Source: Ruminococcus sp. (lineage in GTDB: Bacteria > Bacillota > Clostridia > Oscillospirales > Ruminococcaceae). Taken from it: 43,251 bases of DNA. The stretch lies in assembly GCF_017464355.1 (NCBI RefSeq), contig NZ_JAFUAG010000012.1, positions 1-43,251 on the forward strand, given 5' to 3'. Position numbers and translations under genes: made by a program. Positions within the stretch are counted from its first letter, which is position 1. Each line of letters starts with the position of its first letter. Positions 7,900 to 24,977 of the stretch are shown one piece after another. The notes under the pieces are model-generated. The model was not told where the DNA came from, did no database searches, and worked only from the letters and a program-made list of their open reading frames with translations.

Positions 7900-7935
7900 C
7901 AAACAAAGAGGGCTGCCGAACTACGGCAGCCCTCA
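7900..7935 (-). terminator. Intrinsic terminator of the tandem RNA array
   Basis: Minus strand AGGGCTGCCG-tagtt-CGGCAGCCCT (7911-7935) followed by CTTTGTTTGT. A 10-bp GC-rich stem with a T-rich tail, correctly placed after the last repeat remnant. Confidence 0.85.
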
Positions 7936-7952
7936 CATTATCCATTTTCAAG

Positions 7953-8031
7953 CCATTGGACTTTGATCCTTTCGCAAAATATAGAAAGCCAAATATGAAA
8001 TCTCATGTACTCCCCGCCACGCGTAAACTCA
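7953..8031 (-). repeat. Degenerate RNA unit, last copy
   Basis: Minus strand carries ACGCGTGGCG and then GCGAAAGG-N8-CCAATGGCTTG, the 3' module of the full units; the 5' half is not recognisable. It directly precedes the terminator. Confidence 0.55.
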
Positions 8032-8061
8032 CAACATCGTGTGGAGAAAATATATCAAATT

Positions 8062-8145
8062 TCCATTGGAATAAGTTTCCTTTCGGTAAGTAAATTTTGT
8101 CGGGATAAAATTTAACTTCTCATCGGATCTGTTACCTTTCAATAT
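8062..8145 (-). repeat. Two degenerate 3' modules of the RNA unit
   Basis: On the minus strand GAAAGG-N8-CCGATG lies near 8124-8145, and CCGACAA...CCGAAAGG-N9-CCAATGG at 8062-8104. Both keep the conserved 3' signature of the full units but lack the 5' hairpin. Confidence 0.5.
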
Positions 8146-8183
8146 ATTTTATATGATCGAGTTCCGCATCAGCGGACAATTAA

Positions 8184-8345
8184 AATCAAGCCATAGGACT
8201 TATTACCTTTCGTTGAATTAACGCTCACGCGTCTTGTCGGGATGTCCCGCTAAGCTTCGGGACTAAGCTGCATAAACCTTCGGGATCACTCCTAACATTC
8301 AGATATTCAGCAGTCTGGCGCGCATTACCATAATGCACCACTCCC
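8184..8345 (-). repeat. Structured RNA unit 4
   Basis: Minus strand. 5' hairpin GTGCATTA-tgg-TAATGCGC; helix TCCCG/CGGGA closing AAGCTTAG; ACGC-GTGA-GCGT hairpin; GAAAGG-N8-CCTATGGCTTG at the 3' end. It has GGAGTGATCCC where the other units have GGAGTGAGTCC. Confidence 0.75.
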
Positions 8346-8390
8346 ATATTCAGTATAGTGCGGCCTCAGCCGCCAAAAGGTCGGATAAAA

Positions 8391-8557
8391 AACCAACTAA
8401 GCCATTGGTACGTTTTCCTTTCAGAAGATTTGCGCTCACGCGCCGTTGTCGAAGCGTTTCCCATAAGCTCGGAAACTAAGCTGCTACACCCTTCGGACTC
8501 ACTCCTAACATTCAGATATTCAGCAGTCTTACGCGCATTAACATAATGCACCACTCC
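8391..8557 (-). repeat. Structured RNA unit 3
   Basis: Minus strand. 5' hairpin with loop tgt; GGAGTGAGTCCGAAGG; helix TTTCC/GGAAA; GCGC-GTGA-GCGC; GAAAGG-N8-CCAATGG. The 3' CCAA-N8-TTGG hairpin is followed by six T residues, so this unit could end as its own RNA. Confidence 0.75.
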
Positions 8558-8604
8558 TTATAAAGATATGCGGCTGTCACACCGTACATTTTCGTCGAAA
8601 TAAA

Positions 8605-8770
8605 AACCAACTAAGCCATTGGTAGGATTTCCTTTCAGAAGATTTGCGCTTCACGCGCCTTGTCGGATCGTTCCTCCAGCTCAGGAACTAAGCTGTATTG
8701 TACTTGGGACTCACTCCTCACTCTCACATAGTCAGCAGTCTTGTGCGCATTACCATAATGCACCACTCCC
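8605..8770 (-). repeat. Structured RNA unit 2
   Basis: Minus strand. 5' hairpin GTGCATTA-tgg-TAATGCGC; GGAGTGAGTCCC; helix TTCCT/AGGAA closing GAGCTGG; GCGC-GTGAA-GCGC; GAAAGG-N8-CCAATGG; 3' CCAA-N8-TTGG hairpin and T5. Confidence 0.75.
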
Positions 8771-8820
8771 TAACAACATATTGTATCCCGTTACCTCGGG
8801 AAAAATGAACGCTTAAACAA

Positions 8821-8984
8821 GTTACTATGCCATCGGTAAAACACCTTTCGGTAGATCAACGCTCCACGCGTCTTTGTCAGAGTGCCTCTCCAGCTCAGAG
8901 GCTAAGCCGAATAGAACTTTGGACTCACTCCCATCATTCAAATATTCAGAGATACTATGTGCATTACCATAATGCACCACTCCC
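8821..8984 (-). repeat. Structured RNA unit 1
   Basis: Minus strand. Perfect 5' hairpin GTGCATTA-tgg-TAATGCAC; GGAGTGAGTCCAAAG; helix CCTCT/AGAGG closing GAGCTGG; ACGC-GTGGA-GCGT; ACC-GAAA-GGT hairpin; CCGATGGCATAG at the end. First unit after the unique 5' domain. Confidence 0.75.
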
Positions 8985-9437
8985 GAAATAATTATTTTTA
9001 TCCCGCCGATCGGAACAGCTCCGCGCCGTCCCGCCCCACAGCGGGCGTCTATTCAATTGTAATTGTGAGTATTCGTCTTGTACTGACGTAATTGTGATAT
9101 GGTCCTTCGACCCATCCATTTCCCGTCGTGATAACCTCACTGTTCAGAACCGGCAGCCCTGTGACTGCGCCCTGTTCCCCTCGCTATCTTAAGAAATGCA
9201 CGAGCCCTGAATACTCAAAAGGCTCTCGTTTACATCCATCGGACTCGCTCCTTTCATCATGAACTAAGAATAACACGGAGTCTGCACCGCCTGGTAGATC
9301 AGGCTCTCTGCCGGGACTGGTTGCGGCACCTTTACTCTCTCCCGTGAATTTCTCCATTCAAGGAACTCTCGGCTTTAATATCAGCACCTGCTGCAATGCT
9401 TCGGCTGACTTTATGTGCTTTCCTTTTCCTTGAATAT

Positions 9438-9466
9438 ACTATACCACACTTTTTGTGCTTTGTCAA
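9438..9466 (-). promoter_or_regulatory. Promoter of the tandem RNA array
   Basis: Minus strand TTGACA (9461-9466), 17-nt spacer, TATAGT (9438-9443). The near-consensus match suggests high expression. No gene with a good ribosome binding site follows. Confidence 0.85.
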
Positions 9467-9545
9467 TAGTTTTTTTCAACAATTATATAATTTTTATATT
9501 TAACTTACAAAATAAAGAGTAACAGTTGTTTTAGAAATTCATACT

Positions 9546-9574
9546 TGACTTATGGGAGAGAATGATGTATAATA
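9546..9574 (+). promoter_or_regulatory. Promoter of the DUF1292 gene
   Basis: TTGACT (9546-9551), 17-nt spacer, TATAAT (9569-9574). It is divergent from the RNA-array promoter. The leader contains a TTGCGGC...GCCGCA inverted repeat at about 9582-9613. Confidence 0.8.
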
Positions 9575-9641
9575 TAAGTGTTGCGGCGGTCGTGGAACGA
9601 TTTGTGAGCCGCATTTGTTTTATATCAAGGAGGTTTTAGGT

Positions 9642-9977
9642 ATGGACGAGCAGATGAATGAGTATACCCCCGATCTTTATGAACTTATGGACGAGCAGGG
9701 CAACAAGCAGACCTTCGAGCTGCTGGACTGCATGGACTTTGAGGACGAGAGATACTATGCGCTGACACCTTATTTTGAGGAAGAGGACGCTGACAAGATC
9801 CTTGACGAGGCTTCGCTGCTGGTCATACTTAAGGTAGAGTACGATCCCGAAACGGGTGAGGAGATACTGGCCTCTATCGAAGATGAAGAGCTGTTTGACC
9901 GCGTAGGTGCGGCTTTTGAAGAGCGTCTTGAAGAGATGTTCGATTTTGAGGACGATGAAGACGACAGCGAGGGCTGA
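9642..9977 (+). CDS. DUF1292 (YrzB-like) acidic protein
   Basis: Small, very acidic protein of 111 aa with no known activity. ATG at 9642 has AAGGAGG 9 nt upstream, favoured over the in-frame start at 9615. The family pattern is seen: ELMDEQGNKQTFELLDCMDF, then DERYYALTPY and LVILKVEYD. It ends in a run of Asp/Glu. In many Firmicutes this family sits beside yrzL/ruvX, but not here. No membrane segment. Confidence 0.85.
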   Translation: MDEQMNEYTPDLYELMDEQGNKQTFELLDCMDFEDERYYALTPYFEEEDADKILDEASLLVILKVEYDPETGEEILASIEDEELFDRVGAAFEERLEEMFDFEDDEDDSEG

Positions 9978-10032
9978 TGCCAATAATTTATATTGTACAA
10001 TTTTTCAGACTTTATTTTGTCTAATTTACCGT

Positions 10033-10061
10033 TTGAAATCTGCACTGATATATGGTATAAT
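10033..10061 (+). promoter_or_regulatory. Promoter of the leader RNA/iron-ADH unit
   Basis: TTGAAA (10033-10038), 17-nt spacer, TATAAT (10056-10061). Start expected near 10067. Confidence 0.75.
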
Positions 10062-10066
10062 GTAGA

Positions 10067-10372
10067 CAGCAGAAAGGGAAGAGGAGATAAGGCTTCCCGA
10101 TGAACAAGTTTTTAGATTGCTACCTTGTTCGACCAAGCATAGACATTGTAAATCCAACACTTATTAAAAGGGATCCGCACTCTTTGTGAAGATTGAAGAC
10201 CTCCCGCCCGAACCGCATTTGCCGTTTGGTCTACGGACGAAGGGATCATGAGGCTCAAAGGTCGTTTTACCCACCCTGCATTCATTGCGGGTTTAACTTC
10301 TATGCGACGGCAAGGCGGCAATTTTATTTTAAAAGCAGAGGGGCTGTTGTTTTTGCAACAGCCCCTTATCTC
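10067..10372 (+). ncRNA. Structured RNA or riboswitch-like leader, unknown family
   Basis: About 300 nt between a good promoter and a terminator, with no convincing reading frame. Helices visible by eye: GAACAAG/CTTGTTC (about 10103-10130); a long-range pair GCATAGA/TCTATGC (near 10138 and 10304) closing a domain; GACCT/AGGTC inside it; CCGT-N7-ACGG; and CCCTGCA...TTGCGGG. The terminator hairpin lies 16 nt before the ribosome binding site of the next gene. It is therefore either a free small RNA or an attenuating leader for the iron alcohol dehydrogenase. I could not match it to a known riboswitch, 6S, SRP or tmRNA pattern. Confidence 0.6.
10340..10372 (+). terminator. Terminator or attenuator before the iron-ADH gene
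   Basis: Perfect 10-bp stem GGGGCTGTTG / CAACAGCCCC with loop TTTTTG, followed by TTATCTCT. The tail is T-rich but interrupted, so read-through into the downstream gene is likely. Confidence 0.7.
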
Positions 10373-10391
10373 TGTAAATGGAGGAAGAAAG

Positions 10392-11489
10392 ATGCAGAAA
10401 ATAATAGATAACACCCCCGAAGCGCTGGACGCTTACTTCACGCAGACAGGCGCAAAAAAGGTCTTCCTGGTGGGCGGGAAGTCTATGGACAAGCTGAAGA
10501 TAGGTGAGTATTTCAGCAAGCTGGAGGAACGCACAGGCATAAATGTAGTGCGCTTTTCCGACTTCAAGCCAAATCCCGGCTATGAGTCGGTGCTGGCAGG
10601 GGTAAAGCTTTTCAGGGAAAGCGGCTGCGATATGATAGCTGCTGTGGGCGGCGGTTCGGCTATGGATACCGCCAAGTGCATAAAGATGTATGCTACCATG
10701 GACGACAGCACAGATCATATCAAGCAGGAGATAGTTCCCAATGATATGGAATTTCTGGCTGTTCCCACCACGGCGGGCACAGGCAGCGAGGCTACGCGCT
10801 ATTCCATAATCTACTATAACGGGGTGAAGACCACTGTCACCGATGACAGCAGCATACCCACCGCAGTGCTTTTCGACCCCGATACACTGCGCTCTCTGCC
10901 TGATTACCAGAAAAAGGCCACCATGCTGGACGCTCTCTGCCATGCGGTGGAGTCTTACTGGTCGGTGCATTCCACCGATGAGAGCAAGGCTTTTGCGGCA
11001 CAGGCCATAAAGCTTATTTTTGCGGCTAAGGATGGTTATCTGGCCAACACTGATGAGGGCAACAGCGATATGCTGAAAGCCGCCAACATCGCGGGCAAGG
11101 CCATAAACATCACCGCCACCACCGCAGGCCACGCCATGTGCTACAAGCTCACCTCGGACTTCGGGCTGGCTCACGGCCATGCATCCGCCCTTTGCGTGAA
11201 GGTGCTGTTCCCCTATATGGTGCAGAATACACATCTTTGCACCGATGAAAGGGGCGAGGGTTATTTTGTGGAGATGCTTGATGAACTGGCGGAAGTAATG
11301 GGCTGTGACACACCTATGGCAGCGGCAGAAAAGTTCTGGGCGCTGATAGATGAGCTGGGCATGGAAGTTCCTGCCTTTACCGAAAAAGACCTGGAGAAGC
11401 TGGCAGGGGCTGTCAACACAGACCGCCTTAAAAACCACCCCATCAGCCTGGAACCCTGGAGCATAAAAATGCTCTACGGCAGAATGTGA
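10392..11489 (+). CDS. Iron-containing alcohol dehydrogenase
   Basis: NAD(P)-dependent group III alcohol dehydrogenase of 365 aa; substrate not determinable. ATG at 10392 with GGAGGAAG before it. The nucleotide-binding GGGSAMDTAK lies near residue 95, PTTAGTGSEATRYSI follows, and metal ligands are in LDALCHAVESYW (Asp and His) and in TAGHAMCYKLTSDFGLAHGH (two His). These features resemble enzymes used for phosphonoacetaldehyde or small aldehyde reduction, but no phosphonate genes are nearby. It probably forms an operon with the DUF3006-like gene 9 nt downstream. A structured leader and terminator upstream suggest control by attenuation. Confidence 0.9.
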   Translation: MQKIIDNTPEALDAYFTQTGAKKVFLVGGKSMDKLKIGEYFSKLEERTGINVVRFSDFKPNPGYESVLAGVKLFRESGCDMIAAVGGGSAMDTAKCIKMYATMDDSTDHIKQEIVPNDMEFLAVPTTAGTGSEATRYSIIYYNGVKTTVTDDSSIPTAVLFDPDTLRSLPDYQKKATMLDALCHAVESYWSVHSTDESKAFAAQAIKLIFAAKDGYLANTDEGNSDMLKAANIAGKAINITATTAGHAMCYKLTSDFGLAHGHASALCVKVLFPYMVQNTHLCTDERGEGYFVEMLDELAEVMGCDTPMAAAEKFWALIDELGMEVPAFTEKDLEKLAGAVNTDRLKNHPISLEPWSIKMLYGRM

Positions 11490-11498
11490 GGTGCAGCC

Positions 11499-11663
11499 AT
11501 GGGACCCATAACCTATAAAGTGACCAGGATAGACGGTGACTACGCTCACCTGATGAACGTTGAAACGGGCGAAGACCTGTTAGTTGCCATGGCGCTGCTG
11601 CCAGAGGAAACAGACGAAGGCATGACACTGCTCTGGGAAAATTTTACCTATACGGTCATATAA
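11499..11663 (+). CDS. DUF3006-like small protein
   Basis: 54 aa reading MGPITYKVTRIDGDYAHLMN and ending ENFTYTVI. The pattern (T)RIDGDYAhl-x-NVETGEDLLV-x-x-x-LLPEE-x-x-EGM resembles DUF3006 proteins (DRFEGDYAV...I-x-x-x-LLP-x-x-x-x-EGD), a short SH3-like beta fold. The AGGTG ribosome binding site overlaps the stop of the preceding dehydrogenase, so the two are probably cotranscribed. Function unknown. Confidence 0.65.
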   Translation: MGPITYKVTRIDGDYAHLMNVETGEDLLVAMALLPEETDEGMTLLWENFTYTVI

Positions 11664-11685
11664 TTCATAATTCATAATTATGTTG

Positions 11686-11803
11686 ATGCCACCGACACAC
11701 CTACGACTTTTCAAAGCGTGTGACAAACGCTGTTGTTATTCTTTCCACCGCCGCAGGCGGGGAAGAATAACTCAAAAAGTTTCGGGCGGTGTGCAGACGG
11801 TAT
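11686..11803. repeat. CACACC-ended palindromic element, copy 1
   Basis: 118 bp with inverted ends ATGCCACCGACACACC and GGTGTGCAGACGGTAT. The internal hairpin GTTATTCTTTCC...GGGGAAGAATAAC surrounds a CCGCCGCAGGCGG core. Related elements lie at 36580-36728 and, degenerate, at 33532-33659. No gene inside. Confidence 0.6.
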
Positions 11804-11825
11804 ACCACTTCCATGGTGCATAACT

Positions 11826-11872
11826 GCGCGGGACGTCCAGCTTCTGGTGGACATCAGTCCCGCGCTTTTTTT
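11826..11872 (+). terminator. Intrinsic terminator of the iron-ADH/DUF3006 unit
   Basis: GCGCGGGAC ... GTCCCGCGC with an inner GTCCA/TGGAC helix, followed by TTTTTTT. Confidence 0.9.
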
Positions 11873-11898
11873 ACAGCTGCGTTCGCTAACGATAAAGA

Positions 11899-12004
11899 TT
11901 TAATGTTTATCATTAAATTATTTATGTTTATTGTGACTATATCTCTTCCCCGAAAAGGGCTGTCGTTTTGTGAAAACATATAAAAATTAACGTTTATCAT
12001 TAAA
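11899..12004. promoter_or_regulatory. Two operator-like palindromes upstream of DUF2975/xre
   Basis: TTTAATG-TTTAT-CATTAAA (11899-11917) and a near copy TTAACGTTTATCATTAAA (11987-12004). The second ends 6 nt before the -35 box. The matching cores TTTATCATTAAA suggest one regulator, most simply the Xre protein of the operon itself. Confidence 0.5.
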
Positions 12005-12010
12005 AACTAG

Positions 12011-12039
12011 TTGACAAACGTAAATAACTGTGCTATACT
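12011..12039 (+). promoter_or_regulatory. Promoter of the DUF2975/xre operon
   Basis: TTGACA (12011-12016), 17-nt spacer, TATACT (12034-12039). Confidence 0.85.
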
Positions 12040-12090
12040 CATAACATCGAAAGACAACAACGACCCCAACAAGGGAAAGGAGAAAACAAA

Positions 12091-12603
12091 ATGAAAACCA
12101 AAAAAGAACTTACGACTGAAGAGATCATGAGAATGCAGAACCCCACACTGAAATTCATGTTTATAGCGACCATAGTGATCGCCGTGATACTGGCGGCGAG
12201 AATGGTGCAGGCTGTCAGCACGCTGAATATGCTCGCAGCTGACAGCGGCCTCACCGAAAGCGCCCAGCGGTGGTTCCAGGATACCGCCTTTGACCTTTTC
12301 GGTGATGTGGGCTACATCGCGGTGTGCATAGTTTCTTCCGTGATGTTTTTCTTCACGCTGAAAGACCACACCCCATTTACAAGAAGGACCTCCAACTGCC
12401 TGATCATCATTGCGGCTGTCATGATGGTAACAGCTGTCTTCTCGCCCCTTGCCGCAAGGGAATTCAGCAGTTCCGTCATCGGCACGAATTTTTACATCGT
12501 CAAGTCGGGCAATGAGATCTTCGCAAGCTCGCTGCTGTTCATAATATCCGCCTTCTTCCGCTACGGCACCAAGCTCCAGCAGGAGTCGGACGAAACTCTG
12601 TAA
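12091..12603 (+). CDS. DUF2975-like four-helix membrane protein
   Basis: 170-aa integral membrane protein of unknown function. Hydrophobic segments lie at about residues 20-40 (KFMFIATIVIAVILAARMV), 72-90 (VGYIAVCIVSSVMFFFTL), 100-120 (CLIIIAAVMMVTAVFSPLA) and 138-155 (EIFASSLLFIISAFFRYG). Start ATG 12091 with AAAGGAG upstream. Arrangement with a following small Xre regulator (YozG type) is characteristic of DUF2975 genes. The downstream gene begins 12 nt after the stop. Confidence 0.75.
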   Translation: MKTKKELTTEEIMRMQNPTLKFMFIATIVIAVILAARMVQAVSTLNMLAADSGLTESAQRWFQDTAFDLFGDVGYIAVCIVSSVMFFFTLKDHTPFTRRTSNCLIIIAAVMMVTAVFSPLAAREFSSSVIGTNFYIVKSGNEIFASSLLFIISAFFRYGTKLQQESDETL

Positions 12604-12615
12604 GGCGGTGAGGAT

Positions 12616-12825
12616 ATGGCTATAATACTCAGATTAGACAGGGTCATGGCGGACAGAAAAATGAGCCTTAACGAACTCAGCGAGTTGGTGGGTGTCAGCA
12701 ATGTCAACCTCTCAAAGCTGAAAACAGGCAAGGTCAGCGCCGTCAGGTTCTCAACTCTCAACGCTATCTGCAAAGCGCTGCACTGTCAGCCCGGCGACAT
12801 ACTTGAATTTATCGATGATGAATAG
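12616..12825 (+). CDS. Xre/YozG-type helix-turn-helix regulator
   Basis: 69-aa DNA-binding protein consisting of one Cro/C1-type HTH: MSLNELSELVGVSNVNLSKL as the helix-turn-helix, then KVSAVRFSTLNAICKALHCQ and the typical ending PGDILEF. Start ATG 12616 has AAGGCGGTGAGG upstream. It is paired with the membrane protein before it. It likely binds the palindromes at 11899-12004 and autoregulates; this is inference. Confidence 0.9.
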   Translation: MAIILRLDRVMADRKMSLNELSELVGVSNVNLSKLKTGKVSAVRFSTLNAICKALHCQPGDILEFIDDE

Positions 12826-12826
12826 C

Positions 12827-12857
12827 AAAAAGGCGGTGCGCCATGCACCGCCTTTTT
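12827..12857. terminator. Bidirectional terminator
   Basis: AAAAAGGCGGTG-cgccat-GCACCGCCTTTTT, symmetrical with A and T tails, between converging genes. A close copy lies at 24891-24922 as part of a duplicated segment. Confidence 0.9.
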
Positions 12858-12871
12858 GTTTCGGAAGTCTA

Positions 12872-13243
12872 TTACTCTGCCGACTTCACAGCCTTGCCTG
12901 TCAGGGCGAAGATTGCCACTGCAGCATGAAGAACTGCTACGCCTGCCATGAAAACTATTGAAGCGTACCTGATGTTCAGTACCATTGAGCCCACCTGAGA
13001 AATGACCAGTGCTGCTGTCACGAGGGCTGCTGCGCTGCCTGCGATAAGGCTGAGCTTTTCTGCTTTCTTATCCGATATCTTGTTTGTACCTGCTGCGAAA
13101 GCGAGCAGCATAACAAACAGTACCCAGTGATTGCACTTTGCATTTGAAATGCAGAAACCGTAAGCCGAAAGCGATGCCATAACTGCCGTTGCGATGTTCA
13201 GGATAACGAATGTGTTTCTGTTGTTCATAGTGTTGTTTTTCAT
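12872..13243 (-). CDS. Four-helix membrane protein, paralog 1
   Basis: 123 aa, unknown function. Four hydrophobic segments: about 11-31 (TFVILNIATAVMASLSAYGF), 39-53, 66-86 (LSLIAGSAAALVTAALVI) and 94-116 (ASIVFMAGVAVLHAAVAIFA). Start MKNNTMNNRNTF with GGAGG about 9 nt before the ATG. The protein at 24505-24876 differs at only about 15 positions, mostly conservative and within membrane segments, so both copies seem to be under selection. Monocistronic, with its own promoter and phased direct repeats upstream. Confidence 0.8.
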   Translation of the reverse strand: MKNNTMNNRNTFVILNIATAVMASLSAYGFCISNAKCNHWVLFVMLLAFAAGTNKISDKKAEKLSLIAGSAAALVTAALVISQVGSMVLNIRYASIVFMAGVAVLHAAVAIFALTGKAVKSAE

Positions 13244-13311
13244 AGTGATGACCTCCGAAATAATTAAGTTTTAGTTTGTTTTGGAACTCTCTGTTCCCCT
13301 TTTCTGATATC

Positions 13312-13367
13312 ATTATAGCATGAGAAAGTCAAGAAAGCGGCCAAGAAAAAGTCAAGATGTGGTCAAG
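13312..13367 (-). promoter_or_regulatory. Promoter with four helically phased TCTTGAC repeats, copy 1
   Basis: On the plus strand AGTCAAG (13327), GGCCAAG (13339), AGTCAAG (13350) and GGTCAAG (13361) begin 12, 11 and 11 nt apart; minus strand -10 TATAAT is at 13312-13317. No consensus -35 is at the right distance, which fits an activator-dependent promoter or tandem operator. It resembles CtsR heptads (RGTCAAA) but has G at position 7 and a longer period. Confidence 0.7.
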
Positions 13368-13380
13368 ATATTTTTATTTT

Positions 13381-13425
13381 GCCGTGTATTGTTTTTCCCG
13401 CCTTTGGCGGGGAGAAATGCGAATA
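13381..13425. repeat. Fragment of a dispersed palindromic element
   Basis: GTGTATTGTTTTTCCCGCC-ttt-GGCGGGGAGAAATG resembles one half of the TCCCAATTT-family element. The ends are missing. The rest of 13430-13500 shows nothing clear. Confidence 0.35.
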
Positions 13426-13500
13426 AAATTACGAGAGCCTGCATTTCCGCCGAAGTCCTCAGAGGGCGAAAGGTCAAGAAAAAATATGATAATTATGCTA

Positions 13501-13529
13501 TTGGCAAATCAGCACAAATGTGCTATAAT
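13501..13529 (+). promoter_or_regulatory. dnaE promoter
   Basis: TTGGCA (13501-13506), 17-nt spacer, TATAAT (13524-13529). The spacer holds a perfect inverted repeat AGCACA-aa-TGTGCT (13511-13524). Confidence 0.75.
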
Positions 13530-13576
13530 GATATGGTGTACACGAGATCCGTGATATCTGTGCGGGAGGTTCTGTT

Positions 13577-16500
13577 GTGGCGGGATTTGTTCATCTTCAT
13601 CTTCATACCGAATATTCGTTGCTGGACGGTGCCTGCCGCATAGACAGGCTAATGGGAAGGCTTAAAGAACTGGGGCAGACAGCCTGTGCTGTCACGGACC
13701 ACGGCAATATGTTTGCGGCGGTGGAATTCTACAATGCCTGCAGGGCTGCGGGGATAAAGCCCATAATCGGCTGTGAGGTATATGTGGCGCGGGGCAGCAG
13801 GCAGGACAAGTACCCCTCGGCGGGCAAGCCCTACCATCTTATACTGCTTTGCCGAAACGACACGGGCTACCACAACCTGATGAAGCTGGTATCTCTGGGG
13901 TACACCGAGGGCTTCTACAACCGCCCGAGGATAGACCTTGAACTGCTGCGGCAGTACCACGAGGGGCTCATATGCCTTTCGGGCTGTGTGGCGGGGGAGC
14001 TGGCGCAGAAGATAGCTGACACCAACTACAAGGGTGCTGTGGAAACTGCCCTGCTGTACAGGGAGATATTCGGGGCGGACAACTATTTCATCGAGATACA
14101 GCGCCACCGTGACCCGACCGAGCAGAGGGTCATGCCCTCGCTGATGAGACTTTCTCAGGAAACGGGCATACCCCTCTGCCTTACCAACGACTGCCACTAT
14201 CTGCGCAAAGAGGACGCTGAGGCTCAGCAGGTGCTTATGTGCATATCCACGGGGTCTACCATGGAGTCACCTGCGTTGAAGTTCCCCTCGGACGAATTCT
14301 ATGTGAAGTCCGCTGAGGAAATGGCACAGCTTTACCCCGCCGCCCCCGAAGCCATGGAGAACACCCTGCGCATTGCCGAGAGGTGCAATGTGAATATAGA
14401 GTTCGGCAACACCATACTGCCCTATTACAGCTACAAGGGTATCACCGACAACGAGAAGTTCCTGCGGAATATGTGCCGCGAGGGGCTCATAAAGCGCTAC
14501 GGCGAGCCCTCGGCGGAGGCAGTGGAGCGCATGGAGTATGAGCTTTCGGTCATAACGAGAATGGGCTACACCAACTACTATCTTATAGTGTGGGATTTTA
14601 TAAATTACGCCAAAAGCAAGGATATACCCGTGGGCCCGGGCAGAGGTTCGGGGGCGGGCAGCCTGTGCGCTTACTGCATAGGCATAACCGACATAGACCC
14701 CCTGAGATACGGGCTGCTCTTTGAGAGATTTTTAAACCCCGAGCGTGTGACCATGCCCGACTTCGATATAGATTTCTGTGTGGAGGGCAGGCAGAAGGTC
14801 ATAGACTATGTGGTGGAAAAATACGGCGCCGACCATGTGGCGCAGATAGCGACTTTCGGTACAATGGCCGCAAAGCAGGCGCTTAGGGACGCTGCCAGGG
14901 TCATGGGCGAGCCCTATGCCACAGGAGACAGGCTGGCAAAGGCCGCCCCAAGGGTAATGTCCCTTTCAGAGTCGGTGGAGAAGTCTGCGGAGCTTAAGGA
15001 GATGTACACCTCTGACAGCAAGCTGCGCAGGATAATAGACTCTGCCATGAGGATAGAGGGTATGCCCAGGAACGTTTCCACCCATGCGGCAGGTGTGGTC
15101 ATCACCAAAGAACCTGTGGACTGCTATGTTCCCCTTTACGCCAGGGAGGGAGCGGTATCCACCCAGTACACCATGACCATACTGGAAAGGCTGGGGCTGC
15201 TGAAAATAGATTTCCTCGGGCTTTCAAACCTTACTATAATAAAGCACTGCTGCGACGAGATAAAAAAGACCGACCCCGATTTCGACATAAGCGCCATACC
15301 CCTTGATGACAAGGCGGTGTACGATATGCTCTCGCGGGGCGAAACAGAGGGTATCTTCCAGTTTGAATCGGGGGGCATGACGGCAACTATAATGAAGCTG
15401 CGCCCCACAGGAATTGAAGACCTCATAGCGGTGCTTTCGCTGTACCGCCCGGGTCCTATGGACTCTATACCCAACTACATACGCTGCCGCCACGACCCTA
15501 GTCTGGTGCGCTACAAGCACCCCCTGCTGCGCCCCATACTTGAAGTCACCTACGGCTGCATAGTTTATCAGGAGCAGGTCATGCAGATATTCCGAGACCT
15601 GGCAGGCTACTCCTTCGGGCGGGCCGACCTGGTAAGGCGAGCCATGTCCAAGAAAAAGGCGGACGTGCTTGAGAATGAGCGCAGGGCTTTCGTGTACGGT
15701 GAGATAGGCGCCTGCTGCGGTGCGGTGGCAAACGGTGTCCCCGAAAAGGTGGCTAACGAGATATTCGATGAGATGTCAAGCTTTGCCAGCTACGCTTTCA
15801 ATAAATCCCATGCAGCAGCCTACGCTACGGTATCCTACCGCACGGCTTACCTTAAGTGCCACTATTTCAGGCAGTACTTTGCCTCGCTGATGACAGAGGC
15901 CATAAACGAAAGCACAGAGAAGCTCTACGGCTACATAACCGCTGCGCGCCGCAGGGGCGTGCGGGTGCTGCCCCCCGATATCAACAAAAGCGGCATGGGC
16001 TTTCTCTGTGAGGGCGAGGATATCCGCTTCGGGCTGCTGGGCATAAAGGGTCTGGGCAGCACGGCCATATCAGTTATGCTGAGGGAAAGGCAGCTGGGCG
16101 GCGAGTTCCGTTCGCTGGAGGACTTCTGCCGCCGCATACAGGGGCGGGACATACATATGCGCATGATCGAAGCCCTGATAAAGGCAGGGGCTATGGACAG
16201 CTTCAAGGGGAACCGCCACGAGAAGATGATAAACAGCTTTGTCTTTCTTGGTGACCTGGGGAAGACGTCGGACAGAATGGAGGGTCAGCTGGACTTTTTC
16301 AGCACAGGCGCCCCCGAGGGCGGCGAGGCTGTTGAACGTCCCATGCTCACCTCCCCCGAATATTCCACCGCCGAACTGCTGGAGTTTGAGCGTGAGGCGC
16401 TGGGTATGTACCTTTCAGCCCACCCCATAGACCCCTATGAACCTTTCGGGCGGGCGGCAGGCCTGACCCCCGTGAAGACCATACTTGAAGCGGGCATGAA

Positions 16501-17005
16501 CGGTGACGGCAAGACCGCCGAGGTGCTGGTGATGGTGACGCGCAAGCGGGCCTTCGCCACAAAAAAGGGTGACATGATGTGCTTCTGCGGAATTGAGGAC
16601 AAGACGGGCGAAATGGAGCTGATAGTCTTCCCGAAAGTCTACAGGGAGCATAAGGGTATAATAAACGAGAGGACTGTGCTGCACCTGCGGGGCAAGGTAT
16701 CCGTCAAGGAGGACGAGCCCCCGAAGATAATGGCAGATGCCGTTGAAACAGGCGAGCAGTTCGTCATGGGGGCTGTGGGCAGAGGTGTCTGTCTGCGGCT
16801 GTCCTCGGCGGACAAGGAACGGCTCACGGCAGTAAAGGAACTTGCACACAGATATGCCGATGACAGCGGTGTTCCCCTGACTGTCTTCTTTGCGGATCTG
16901 AGGCGGCGCACCGCCCTTAAGGGCATACACCGCATACGCATGGACGACAGGGTGATGAACGAGATACTTGACATCGTCGGGGAGGGCAACATAGCCTTCG
17001 GCTGA
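13577..17005 (+). CDS. dnaE: DNA polymerase III subunit alpha
   Basis: Replicative polymerase of the DnaE1 class, 1142 aa. It begins at GTG 13577 with GGGAGG 7 nt upstream. An N-terminal PHP domain starts VHLHLHTEYSLLDGACRI and includes AVTDHGNMFAAVEFY. The catalytic palm holds GPGRGSGAGSLCAYCIGITD and the metal-binding aspartates Asp395 and Asp397 of PDFDIDF. The segment FNKSHAAAYATVSYRTAYLK is a family hallmark, followed by helix-hairpin-helix and an OB-fold region (about 970-1050, ending in ELIVFPKVYREHKG). Gram-positive genomes usually also carry PolC, and DnaE then extends primers; PolC is not in this window. First gene of a probable operon with the two downstream genes. Confidence 0.98.
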   Translation: MAGFVHLHLHTEYSLLDGACRIDRLMGRLKELGQTACAVTDHGNMFAAVEFYNACRAAGIKPIIGCEVYVARGSRQDKYPSAGKPYHLILLCRNDTGYHNLMKLVSLGYTEGFYNRPRIDLELLRQYHEGLICLSGCVAGELAQKIADTNYKGAVETALLYREIFGADNYFIEIQRHRDPTEQRVMPSLMRLSQETGIPLCLTNDCHYLRKEDAEAQQVLMCISTGSTMESPALKFPSDEFYVKSAEEMAQLYPAAPEAMENTLRIAERCNVNIEFGNTILPYYSYKGITDNEKFLRNMCREGLIKRYGEPSAEAVERMEYELSVITRMGYTNYYLIVWDFINYAKSKDIPVGPGRGSGAGSLCAYCIGITDIDPLRYGLLFERFLNPERVTMPDFDIDFCVEGRQKVIDYVVEKYGADHVAQIATFGTMAAKQALRDAARVMGEPYATGDRLAKAAPRVMSLSESVEKSAELKEMYTSDSKLRRIIDSAMRIEGMPRNVSTHAAGVVITKEPVDCYVPLYAREGAVSTQYTMTILERLGLLKIDFLGLSNLTIIKHCCDEIKKTDPDFDISAIPLDDKAVYDMLSRGETEGIFQFESGGMTATIMKLRPTGIEDLIAVLSLYRPGPMDSIPNYIRCRHDPSLVRYKHPLLRPILEVTYGCIVYQEQVMQIFRDLAGYSFGRADLVRRAMSKKKADVLENERRAFVYGEIGACCGAVANGVPEKVANEIFDEMSSFASYAFNKSHAAAYATVSYRTAYLKCHYFRQYFASLMTEAINESTEKLYGYITAARRRGVRVLPPDINKSGMGFLCEGEDIRFGLLGIKGLGSTAISVMLRERQLGGEFRSLEDFCRRIQGRDIHMRMIEALIKAGAMDSFKGNRHEKMINSFVFLGDLGKTSDRMEGQLDFFSTGAPEGGEAVERPMLTSPEYSTAELLEFEREALGMYLSAHPIDPYEPFGRAAGLTPVKTILEAGMNGDGKTAEVLVMVTRKRAFATKKGDMMCFCGIEDKTGEMELIVFPKVYREHKGIINERTVLHLRGKVSVKEDEPPKIMADAVETGEQFVMGAVGRGVCLRLSSADKERLTAVKELAHRYADDSGVPLTVFFADLRRRTALKGIHRIRMDDRVMNEILDIVGEGNIAFG

Positions 17006-17043
17006 CGGGTCATGGAATTATAAATGTAATAACGGAGGGTAAA

Positions 17044-17733
17044 ATGAGGATACTTATTCTAAGACACGGTGAACCCGATTACGTCAAGGACTGCCTGACA
17101 GAAAAGGGCATTGAGCAGGCAAAGCTGCTGGCTGAAAGGCTGGCGGAGGAGGATATCAAAGGTTTCTATGTTTCGCCTATGGGCAGGGCAAGGGAGACCT
17201 GCGGGTACACCCTGGAAAAATTTGCGGGCAGTCAGGCTGAGGTCTGCGACTGGCTGCACGAGTTCGACCTGATGTGGGAAAACCCCCGCAGCGGCAGCAA
17301 GGAAATGGTCTGGGACATTGCCCCCGACTGCTGGACGGAGCTGCCCGAGCTTTTTGAAAAGGAAGGCTGGTACAAAAACCCCGCCATGTCCGCCGCAGGC
17401 ATGGCCGAAAGGATACAGGGGGTCAACAGCGGCGTTGACAGCATACTGGAAAAATACGGCCTTGTGCGGGAGGGCAGCTACTTCCGTGTGGAGAAAAAGT
17501 GCGATGACACCATTGCGCTGTTCTGCCATTTCGGGGCGATGTGTGCTGTTACGGCACATCTGCTGAACATATCCCCCATGATAGTATGGCAGGGCTTCAA
17601 TGCGGACATGACCGCCGTTACCGAACTCTGCACCGATGACCGCTACGGCAGCGTGACAAATTTCAGGATATGCTCCTTCAACGACACCGCCCACCTTAAA
17701 GAAAAGGAAAGGGCACAGCTAAAGGCAAAATAA
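17044..17733 (+). CDS. Histidine phosphatase family protein
   Basis: 229-aa member of the phosphoglycerate mutase-like superfamily, phosphatase type. The catalytic motif LRHGEPDY is at residues 6-13 (His8), the second Arg/Glu region is SPMGRARETCGY near 40, and the second His lies in ALFCHFGAMCAV near 160. An insert of about 80 residues between these is longer than in GpmB-type enzymes. Substrate unknown. Ribosome binding site GGAGG 6 nt before the ATG; 39 nt after dnaE and 13 nt before the next gene, so probably cotranscribed. Confidence 0.85.
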   Translation: MRILILRHGEPDYVKDCLTEKGIEQAKLLAERLAEEDIKGFYVSPMGRARETCGYTLEKFAGSQAEVCDWLHEFDLMWENPRSGSKEMVWDIAPDCWTELPELFEKEGWYKNPAMSAAGMAERIQGVNSGVDSILEKYGLVREGSYFRVEKKCDDTIALFCHFGAMCAVTAHLLNISPMIVWQGFNADMTAVTELCTDDRYGSVTNFRICSFNDTAHLKEKERAQLKAK

Positions 17734-17745
17734 CGAGGTGAGGAA

Positions 17746-18681
17746 ATGAACAGTTATTCGGTCGTACTTCTTCCTGACAGGAAGACCGCCATAAAGCTTA
17801 TGGGAATGATGTGCGGCAGCGAGGTAATAGAAAAGGGTATGCGCCCCTGCGTTGAGATGCTGACTTTTCAGTGTGAAGATGACACTGCCGCACTGGCGGC
17901 CTACCGTGATGCACAGGAACTGGCGGGGATAACAGCCCTTGAATTCTTTGCGGCTGCCATGGAAAGATACGATGATGAGAACAAGCTTTATCGGGTAGGG
18001 CTGCAGCTGCGCCATGACCTGCCCCTGATAAAGATAAGGGAGCTTTTCCGTATGCGGATAGACAAGCTTGCGTTGGTGGAGGATGAAGCTTTCGGCAGCT
18101 ACATACCTCAGGCAGTGCTGGGGCAGGGCTTTACGCAGGAGGATGCCCGCGAAGCTTACCTGATGCTGACAGATGTTTTCTCGCCCTTTTCGGCGGTGGC
18201 GGAAAAAACCGCCCTCATCAGGCTGGCTGATATGGAGATCATCGAAGAGTCCGAGCTGGAACACAGATGTCTCGGCTTTGACCTGCCCGATGAACGCTTC
18301 ACCTCACTGGCACCCGGAATGACAGCTGATGAAGCCGAAAAGGTACTCATGAGAAAGCTGCTGCTGAAAAAGCGCCGCGAGAACGGCGAGGAGGTCCTGC
18401 TGGCAAGGTTCATCGACAACGGTGTAACTCTGCTTTTCGACCCTGAAGACAGGACCCTGCACACCATCGGCCTTGAAGCACCTTTCGGGCTGCCTGTACT
18501 TGGGCTTGACCGCAACGAGGTCAGACGGGAACTTGGCGAGCCTGACAGATATCTGGGCAACAGCGGCTTTTACAGCAGCGGCTGGTTCTACGAGCATATA
18601 CTTGGTCATGCTACCCTTGAACTGGAGTTCGCAGCGCCGCCCTCAGGCACCTGCGAAAGGGTACTGATGACCCGCAGCTGA
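17746..18681 (+). CDS. Conserved protein of unknown function
   Basis: 311 aa, not recognised. No signal peptide or membrane segment, mixed charged composition. The first ~110 residues (MNSYSVVLLPDRKTAIKLMG onward) form one block, and the C-terminal 100 residues another, with GVTLLFDPEDRTLHTIGLEA, NEVRRELGEPDRYLGNSG and a Tyr/Trp-rich stretch FYSSGWFYEHILGHATLELE. The phrase LGEPD-x-Y resembles a lipoprotein-type beta-lactamase-inhibitor-like (SmpA/PepSY-type) turn, but this is weak. Start ATG 17746 with GAGGTGAGG upstream; last gene before a bidirectional terminator. Confidence 0.7.
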   Translation: MNSYSVVLLPDRKTAIKLMGMMCGSEVIEKGMRPCVEMLTFQCEDDTAALAAYRDAQELAGITALEFFAAAMERYDDENKLYRVGLQLRHDLPLIKIRELFRMRIDKLALVEDEAFGSYIPQAVLGQGFTQEDAREAYLMLTDVFSPFSAVAEKTALIRLADMEIIEESELEHRCLGFDLPDERFTSLAPGMTADEAEKVLMRKLLLKKRRENGEEVLLARFIDNGVTLLFDPEDRTLHTIGLEAPFGLPVLGLDRNEVRRELGEPDRYLGNSGFYSSGWFYEHILGHATLELEFAAPPSGTCERVLMTRS

Positions 18682-24347: not shown

Positions 24348-24380
24348 GGGCGCAGACAGTTCTTCGGCTCTGCAAAATAT

Positions 24381-24436
24381 CTTGACCACATCTTGACTTT
24401 TTCTTGGCCGCTTTCTTGACTATTGGGTGTTATAAT
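24381..24436 (+). promoter_or_regulatory. Promoter with four helically phased TCTTGAC repeats, copy 2
   Basis: CTTGACC (24381), CTTGACT (24392), CTTGGCC (24403), CTTGACT (24415): periods 11, 11 and 12. TATAAT is at 24431-24436. The repeats are conserved relative to copy 1, while the 9 nt between the last repeat and the -10 differ. Confidence 0.7.
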
Positions 24437-24504
24437 GATATCAGAAAAGGGGAACAGAGAGTTCCAAAACAAAAAATAAAAAACATTTTTCGGAGGTCAT
24501 CACT

Positions 24505-24876
24505 ATGAAAAACAACACTATGAACAACAGAAACACATTCGTTATCCTGAACATTGTAACCGCAGTTTTGGCGGCTTGCTCCGCTTACGGTTTCTGCATT
24601 TCAAATGCAAAGGGCAATCACTGGGTACTGTTTGTTATACTGCTCGCTTTCGCAACAGATACAAACAAGATACTGGATAAGAAAGCAGAAAAGCTCAGCC
24701 TTATCGCAGGCAGCGCAGCAGCCCTGATAACAGCAGCACTGGTCATTTCTCAGGTGGGTTCAATGGTACTGAACATCAGGTACGCTTCGATAGTTTTCAT
24801 GGCAGGCGCAGCAGTTCTTCACGCCGCAATGGCATTTTTCGCCCTGGCAGGCAAGGCTGTGAAGTCGGCAGAGTAA
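24505..24876 (+). CDS. Four-helix membrane protein, paralog 2
   Basis: 123 aa, near-identical to the product of 12872-13243 in N-terminus (MKNNTMNNRNTFVILNI), second half (LSLIAGSAAALITAALVISQ) and C-terminus (GKAVKSAE). Differences cluster in the first two hydrophobic segments (for example CNHW/GNHW, AAGTNKISD/ATDTNKILD). GGAGG lies about 9 nt before the ATG. Unknown function; the shared phased repeats suggest that both copies answer the same regulator. Confidence 0.8.
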   Translation: MKNNTMNNRNTFVILNIVTAVLAACSAYGFCISNAKGNHWVLFVILLAFATDTNKILDKKAEKLSLIAGSAAALITAALVISQVGSMVLNIRYASIVFMAGAAVLHAAMAFFALAGKAVKSAE

Positions 24877-24890
24877 CAGACTTCCGAAAC

Positions 24891-24922
24891 AAAAAGGCGG
24901 TGCTTTGCGGCACCGCTTTTTT
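24891..24922 (+). terminator. Intrinsic terminator of membrane-protein paralog 2
   Basis: GCGGTGC-tttgcg-GCACCGC followed by TTTTTT; A-rich 5' flank. Confidence 0.9.
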
Positions 24923-24977
24923 GCTGCGGAAAATTTTACGAAAATATGCTGCAAATGATAATATTTTTTATCACATC

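Follow-up and report, generated by a model that had tools for sequence, protein, structure and literature searches.

Lambda bar is one of the known translational minigenes, and CsrB/CsrC-type sponges present tandem short GGA-containing hairpins in one RNA. Further translational minigenes lie in mRNA leaders, namely those of EHEC LEE1 and LEE4, axe-txe (mg2) and B. subtilis ycbK, with one or two minigenes per leader acting in cis on a gene (parts of PMC8708949). A survey of 26 genomes reports single uORF motifs before genes, with no mention of Ruminococcus in the sections of its main text drawn on here (PMC8632094). ROOL and GOLLD are described as ornate phage/prophage RNAs and OLE as a third class (PMC12286853, in part). 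The array studied here lies in a window (the whole stretch of DNA analyzed) of 43,251 nucleotides from a Ruminococcus sp. Its modules have the build of leader minigenes, which consist of a Shine-Dalgarno sequence (SD), an ATG, two to six codons and a stop and act via the ribosome, but here about 10 or more stand in one RNA that has no shared downstream gene. The array also has tandem short GGA hairpins in common with CsrB/CsrC-type sponges, with the difference that GGA here is part of an SD and that an ATG and a stop follow shortly after. Like odc1, uORFC-6-1 and uORFC-8-2, the array is conserved in structure and also contains a short ORF that is conserved (about 11 codons long in those motifs); each of those motifs, by contrast, is one uORF that precedes a named gene (PMC8632094, in part). 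ROOL, GOLLD and OLE share with the predicted array RNA a large, structured, stand-alone character; tandem mini-ORFs are absent from the portion of their description in PMC12286853 that we used, and the array lacks an Rfam match. That the RNA could at first not be placed in a known family agrees with an Rfam search (including ROOL, GOLLD, OLE, raiA and 6S) that gave no match at gathering score within the RNA, the window or 18 relative loci; a permissive search returned weak, unrelated matches only. In 14 and 16 further loci the Rfam matches were confined to tRNA, 6S and T-box, which we take to lie outside the RNA (in locus L105 a tRNA is found about 1.55 kb past the promoter). The open-licence PMC literature yielded no description of such an array, an absence that is not proof.

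The locus is a 1.5-kb minus-strand stretch flanked by an esterase-like ORF and a DUF1292-like gene, as we take the domains of these two neighbors to be (Table 1). Its near-consensus promoter, part of the original prediction, matches at 11 of 12 positions and has a TG preceding the -10 box. The scan that found it returned 7 promoter-like sites versus 3.3 expected and alone is no proof; the promoter is supported because it is conserved in relatives. Judging from the promoter position, transcription probably starts near 9431, and the fold of 9295-9431 is no better than that of shuffles (z -0.67). Where an intrinsic terminator had been proposed there is a terminator-like hairpin, from a scan that gave 2 such sites versus 1.8 expected and is likewise no proof alone; 47 of 56 loci hold terminator-like sites in a loose scan run without shuffle control. 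A palindrome in the promoter, considered as an operator, was dropped: it looks like a general extended -10 motif, with 17 matches in the genome (3 exact, of which 2 are the array locus and its duplicate on contig C30, and 14 with two mismatches) versus 3 for a reversed control.

Table 1. Positions of the features of the array and its surroundings, numbered along the window
Feature	Position	Strand	Remarks
6S RNA candidate past the DUF1292-like gene	10114..10325	+	41.1 bits, below the gathering score of 46.4
DUF1292-like neighbor gene	9615..9977	+	divergent; syntenic anchor, outside the RNA; domain name presumed
Promoter TTGACA-17-TATAGT, extended -10	9438..9466	-	promoter scan; -35-to-start region recurs across the family
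5' region ahead of the first ORF	9240..9437	-	partly conserved in the alignment of 22 genus transcripts
ORF1, MDVNESLLSIQGSCIS-stop	9189..9239	-	SD AAAGGAG
Unit 1	8821..8983	-	repeat comparison
Unit 1 ten-codon ORF, MVMHIVSLNI-stop	8938..8970	-	ATG in hairpin
Unit 1 covarying helix	8884..8902	-	arms 8902-8897 / 8889-8884; columns 25-30 with 40-45
Unit 1 second helix	8859..8871	-	arms 8871-8868 / 8862-8859; columns 61-64 with 70-73
Unit 1 mini-ORF, Met-Ala-stop (MA-stop)	8825..8833	-	
Unit 2	8607..8769	-	MVMRTRLLTM-stop at 8756-8724; MA-stop at 8619-8611
Unit 3	8393..8557	-	MLMRVRLLNI-stop at 8544-8512; MA-stop at 8405-8397
Unit 4	8182..8344	-	MVMRARLLNI-stop at 8331-8299; MA-stop at 8194-8186
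Mini-ORF MRS-stop	8112..8123	-	with SD
Mini-ORF MEI-stop	8055..8066	-	with SD
Mini-ORF MA-stop	7948..7956	-	with SD; final one ahead of the terminator
Terminator-like hairpin, T-rich tail	7908..7934	-	11 bp; sequence scan

That the stretch holds no credible protein gene is borne out for ordinary proteins: a long frame through the units, as of a repeat protein, is absent, and the longest minus-strand ORF in the array has 62 aa (cut-off 50 aa). Tiny SD-preceded ORFs are present, however. The GTGCATTA/ATG hairpin and GAAAGG-N-CCNATGG, originally taken for purely structural motifs, both read as mRNA as SD, ATG, tiny ORF and stop, and each of the three 3' modules described as decayed is a complete mini-ORF with counterparts in relatives. 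In all, the array comprises one 16-aa ORF, four 10-aa ORFs and seven ORFs of 2-3 codons reading Met-Ala-stop, Met-Arg-Ser-stop or Met-Glu-Ile-stop, in the order ORF1, four times a ten-codon ORF followed by Met-Ala-stop, and then MRS-stop, MEI-stop and MA-stop; a Met-stop inside ORF1 and a 22-codon ORF spanning the last linker are left out of this count. In the common module the GG of the SD could pair with a CC directly before the start codon, and since these GG/CC pairs are near-invariant, covariation cannot test the SD hairpin. Each unit also contains a module of a second type, in which the SD is open and the ATG lies inside a hairpin loop; the start hairpin of unit 1 folds better than most shuffles (z -2.5).

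AAGG-N-CCN-ATG occurs at 115 sites in 22 genus transcripts, and the succession of SD, start, few codons and stop that makes a translational minigene is seen at 94 of these, which close within 3 codons in frame 0 versus 23 in frame +1 and 25 in frame +2; 19 of the 21 sites that stay open longer are ORF1. The wider pattern (AGG or GGA)-N3-9-[CT]CC-N-ATG yields 247 modules in 65 transcripts (25 from the genus and 40 others), of which 148 have a stop within 3 codons and 244 have one within 23 (the longest runs to 28 codons and one stays open), compared with 73 and 205 in frame +1 and 44 and 206 in frame +2; other ATGs lacking AGG/GGA upstream (n = 938) close in 168 and 764 cases. The mini-ORFs fall into length groups of 2-3, 8-13 and 15-21 codons, and [CT]CC precedes the ATG in 101 of 310 mini-ORFs (SD at least 4) versus 1 of 139 ordinary genes (SD at least 5). 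Short SD-preceded ORFs number 12.9 per genus transcript versus 4.2 in shuffles, with 20 of 22 transcripts beating all 20 shuffles and 2 not, and 9.6 versus 3.8 in the family set, with 24 of 37 doing so and 13 not; these sets include one of the 22 that is clipped by a contig end and three of the 37 with spurious promoter matches. From the length, spacing, conservation, 65-transcript and downstream-gene counts we dropped L040, which is clipped by a contig end, and L106, L107 and L117, whose promoter match is spurious or misplaced. L103, L122 and L123 are without a promoter match, and L036, which begins inside the array and has no promoter, enters the unit alignments and is not among the transcripts. 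The same-genus loci L112 and L128-L130 sit in the family set (short-SD-ORF shuffles, ORF1, lengths, [CT]CC context and spacing) except in the 65-transcript module count, where they belong to the genus. Start-to-start distances (n = 578) peak at 51-58 nt (137 of 578), and 181 (31%) fall at 45-64 nt versus 9.0% in shuffles; successive steps in L124 are 54, 52, 50, 53 and 51 nt.

On these comparisons the mini-ORFs are very probably selected and translated, and their build suggests that the job of the RNA is ribosome docking rather than protein making. In the reading that we prefer, transcription of the locus would give a stand-alone RNA, about 1.5 kb long, with about 12 separate places of translation. 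At each of them a ribosome would start, join two, three or ten amino acids and then terminate or fall off having hardly moved, so that the RNA would carry ribosomes in a row; the main effect would be in trans, through binding or sensing of initiating ribosomes as a translation buffer, and pausing of ribosomes on ORF1 and the ten-codon ORFs may contribute. To this whole reading, the docking of ribosomes in series included, we assign a probability of roughly 0.4. The earlier suggestion of a multivalent scaffold or sponge would survive in it in modified form, the bound partner probably being the ribosome.

The four tandem units are as predicted, with four copies of a 123-nt core repeat spaced 213, 212 and 214 nt and with linkers that differ in sequence. 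The arms of the helix do change together: across 33 units from 11 loci 95.5% of the helix cells are paired, double changes occur in 8 of 10 pairs, and the covariation score is 0.544 versus 0.264 in shuffles, a value reached by 0 of 500 shuffles and by none of the slid partners (at most 0.179), while the count of further helix pair types (14 versus 15.2; 33 units) does not exceed that in shuffles. The covarying helix in the units is real. It speaks for an RNA whose helices and linkers do the work, as a scaffold or by sponging up a protein or small RNA, with ribosomes on the mini-ORFs only protecting it from nucleases or Rho or refolding it in passing; single minigenes are indeed reported to stabilize their mRNA through ribosome occupancy (parts of PMC8708949). 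We nevertheless consider this account unlikely, in view of the single-unit relatives, in which the middle helix is missing and the mini-ORFs are still present, of the pooled folding of all 40 units, which gives 6 pairs and double changes in none, and of the dissimilar linkers. Folds no better than shuffles were obtained for 8868-8910 (z -0.23) and 9190-9262 (z -1.10). Separately, AGCUUAG and GAGCU, both near-invariant, can pair at 8640-8700, which folds better than most shuffles (z -2.46), and at the same place in the other units; this pairing would exclude the covarying helix, making a two-state switch possible. Every unit also contains GGAGTGAGTCC (at about 8931-8921 in unit 1), an SD-hairpin with a GNRA-like loop that resembles the SD-hairpin of the start modules and has no ATG after it.

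A 10-13-codon ORF is contained in 42 of 44 unit 5' halves (stops TGA 35, TAA 5 and TAG 2), and insertions in it measure 3, 6 or 9 nt. Among 29 distinct ORFs, 682 of 1178 single-base codon differences are synonymous in frame 0 (0.579), compared with 0.161 in frame +1 and 0.307 in frame +2; column shuffles, which preserve the relatedness of the non-independent sequence pairs, give 0.262 (sd 0.093), and 0 of 200 reach the observed value. The original prediction had named synonymous bias in one frame beforehand as an observation that would contradict it, and its purely non-coding RNA is not supported, on this count as well as on the retention of stops by the two- and three-codon ORFs; a structured transcript of covarying tandem units, outside known families, is what stands. 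An alternative frame over the unit start (HYxNA...EYLxxRSES), which is frame +2 and carries the 62-aa ORF, was rejected as the main frame on its synonymous fraction. ORF1 is present in 49 of 59 transcripts and its amino-acid similarity exceeds 300 of 300 shuffles, but it is less certain because 52 of 300 shuffles match or exceed its synonymous fraction. On comparative grounds both structure and translation are under selection in the array. The array could be a polycistronic mRNA for functional peptides, chiefly the ten-codon type M-x-M-x-x-R-L-L-N-I and ORF1, with amplification of the units raising the peptide dose, and this would account for the frame-specific purifying selection on the ten-codon ORF, for LNI-like C-terminal endings that recur in other genera and for the similarity among ORF1 peptides; the ten-codon peptide is conserved, for which docking alone has no need. 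The two- and three-codon ORFs are hardly functional peptides, though: the 90 two-codon ORFs use 16 different second codons (GCT 28, GCA 18), and as the second codon varies, the event rather than the peptide seems kept. We hold a peptide messenger to be quite unlikely as the whole explanation; both it and the protected structured RNA may overlap with ribosome docking.

Improbable is a motif GGA...TCCRATGG that acts untranslated, as a protein- or RNA-binding element with the ORFs as by-products. The SD-hairpin and ATG context is conserved as sequence, in part by construction since the modules were picked by pattern. At the 63 ATGGCN sites, however, a stop follows directly in 56 (TAA 25, TGA 17, TAG 14) and one codon later in the other 7, and stops of all three kinds, after one to three codons of varied sequence, interchange and are therefore not explained by a structural motif; the insertion lengths and the frame-specific bias of the ten-codon ORF also argue against it. 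What comparison of the relatives shows is selection on the modules, on their early stops and on a single reading frame.

In a BLASTN search of 100 genomes the array turned up in 22, its own included, all of the window's genus. The covariance-model search of family genomes that had been proposed was carried out with R1, a model of the unit 5' half built from an alignment of 44 copies, which matches 60 of 297 family genomes and 31 of 126 genera at E ≤ 0.01, many matches being singly weak. Within the genus R1 matches 26 of 29 genomes (21 of them by construction, as training genomes, and 5 of 8 independently), including all 20 with completeness of 90% or more and contamination of 5% or less; completeness is 70-86% in the three genomes that R1 does not match. 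Of 40 loci read, 36 of them in other genera and 4 in the genus, 33 have a DUF1292-like gene divergent and upstream, the exceptions being L106, L107, L117, L122, L123, L125 and L132. Among 295 genomes at order level R1 matches 5, of which 4 belong to the family; the fifth (G395:C7, locus L202; E 0.0036) is without DUF1292 and probably a chance match. A promoter-plus-start signature occurs in 62 of 297 genomes of the family and in 34 of 394 at order level, and of 21 such loci read 11 have a divergent DUF1292 gene and 10 do not. Ten of the 21 lie outside the family (f1), and as only two of these have DUF1292 (L208, which ends at a contig edge, and L209, both of family f24), most promoter-only matches outside the family are merely similar promoters. 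The promoter pattern is carried by 38 stretches, including Ruminococcus albus 8, AR67, KH2T6 and many rumen and gut MAGs, and this pattern, the sole one searched there, has no match among viral contigs. In 9 of 14 and in 6 of 16 relative loci a 6S RNA is found close by, and the lasting neighborhood of DUF1292, 6S and mini-ORF RNA may be meaningful. These comparisons show that the starts prefer a 51-58-nt pitch, that the units keep a covarying helix and that the locus is syntenic.

Control of a downstream gene by the mini-ORFs, the usual role of short leader ORFs (in general and in PMC8632094), is highly improbable, since the conserved regulated gene of a leader peptide or uORF attenuator was not found among the first downstream ORFs of at least 120 aa (present in 60 of 65 loci; 28 singletons, 39 on the opposite strand, largest cluster 9 loci, all of one genus), and in the window a terminator-like hairpin closes the array. 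Ribosome docking, if correct, would tentatively define a new RNA class: a stand-alone ladder in which about 10 or more start-stop mini-ORFs follow one another at a preferred pitch of 51-58 nt. What is conserved in it would be the occupancy by ribosomes, serving as a buffer or sensor of translation capacity in trans; the family would have inherited the ladder together with its neighbors DUF1292 and 6S, and the R. albus group would have amplified it. Single two-codon genes are known from leaders, and here many are kept in one transcript across the family; if ribosomes sit on them, the RNA would put translation to use as a means of binding, a new kind of regulation of protein synthesis. Structured "non-coding" RNAs may, as a warning, be read at ORFs far below annotation cut-offs. 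In ribosome profiling, conversely, signals that look like footprints can come from structured RNA (PMC7580957). Cultured carriers (Ruminococcus albus strains) make the array testable.

Several loci from other genera (L124, L110, L217-L219 and L132) hold mini-ORF arrays of their own that are built differently, with steps of about 52-54 nt, or about 106 nt in L217. An apparent second genomic copy of the array, on contig C30 (G000:C30), was discarded as a redundant contig end identical at 9201 of 9201 bases to window positions 8562-17762. Through C30 we also noticed a 555-bp stretch repeated at 91.5% identity at about 12824-13374 and 24374-24925 of the window, which covers a small ORF at 12872-13243.
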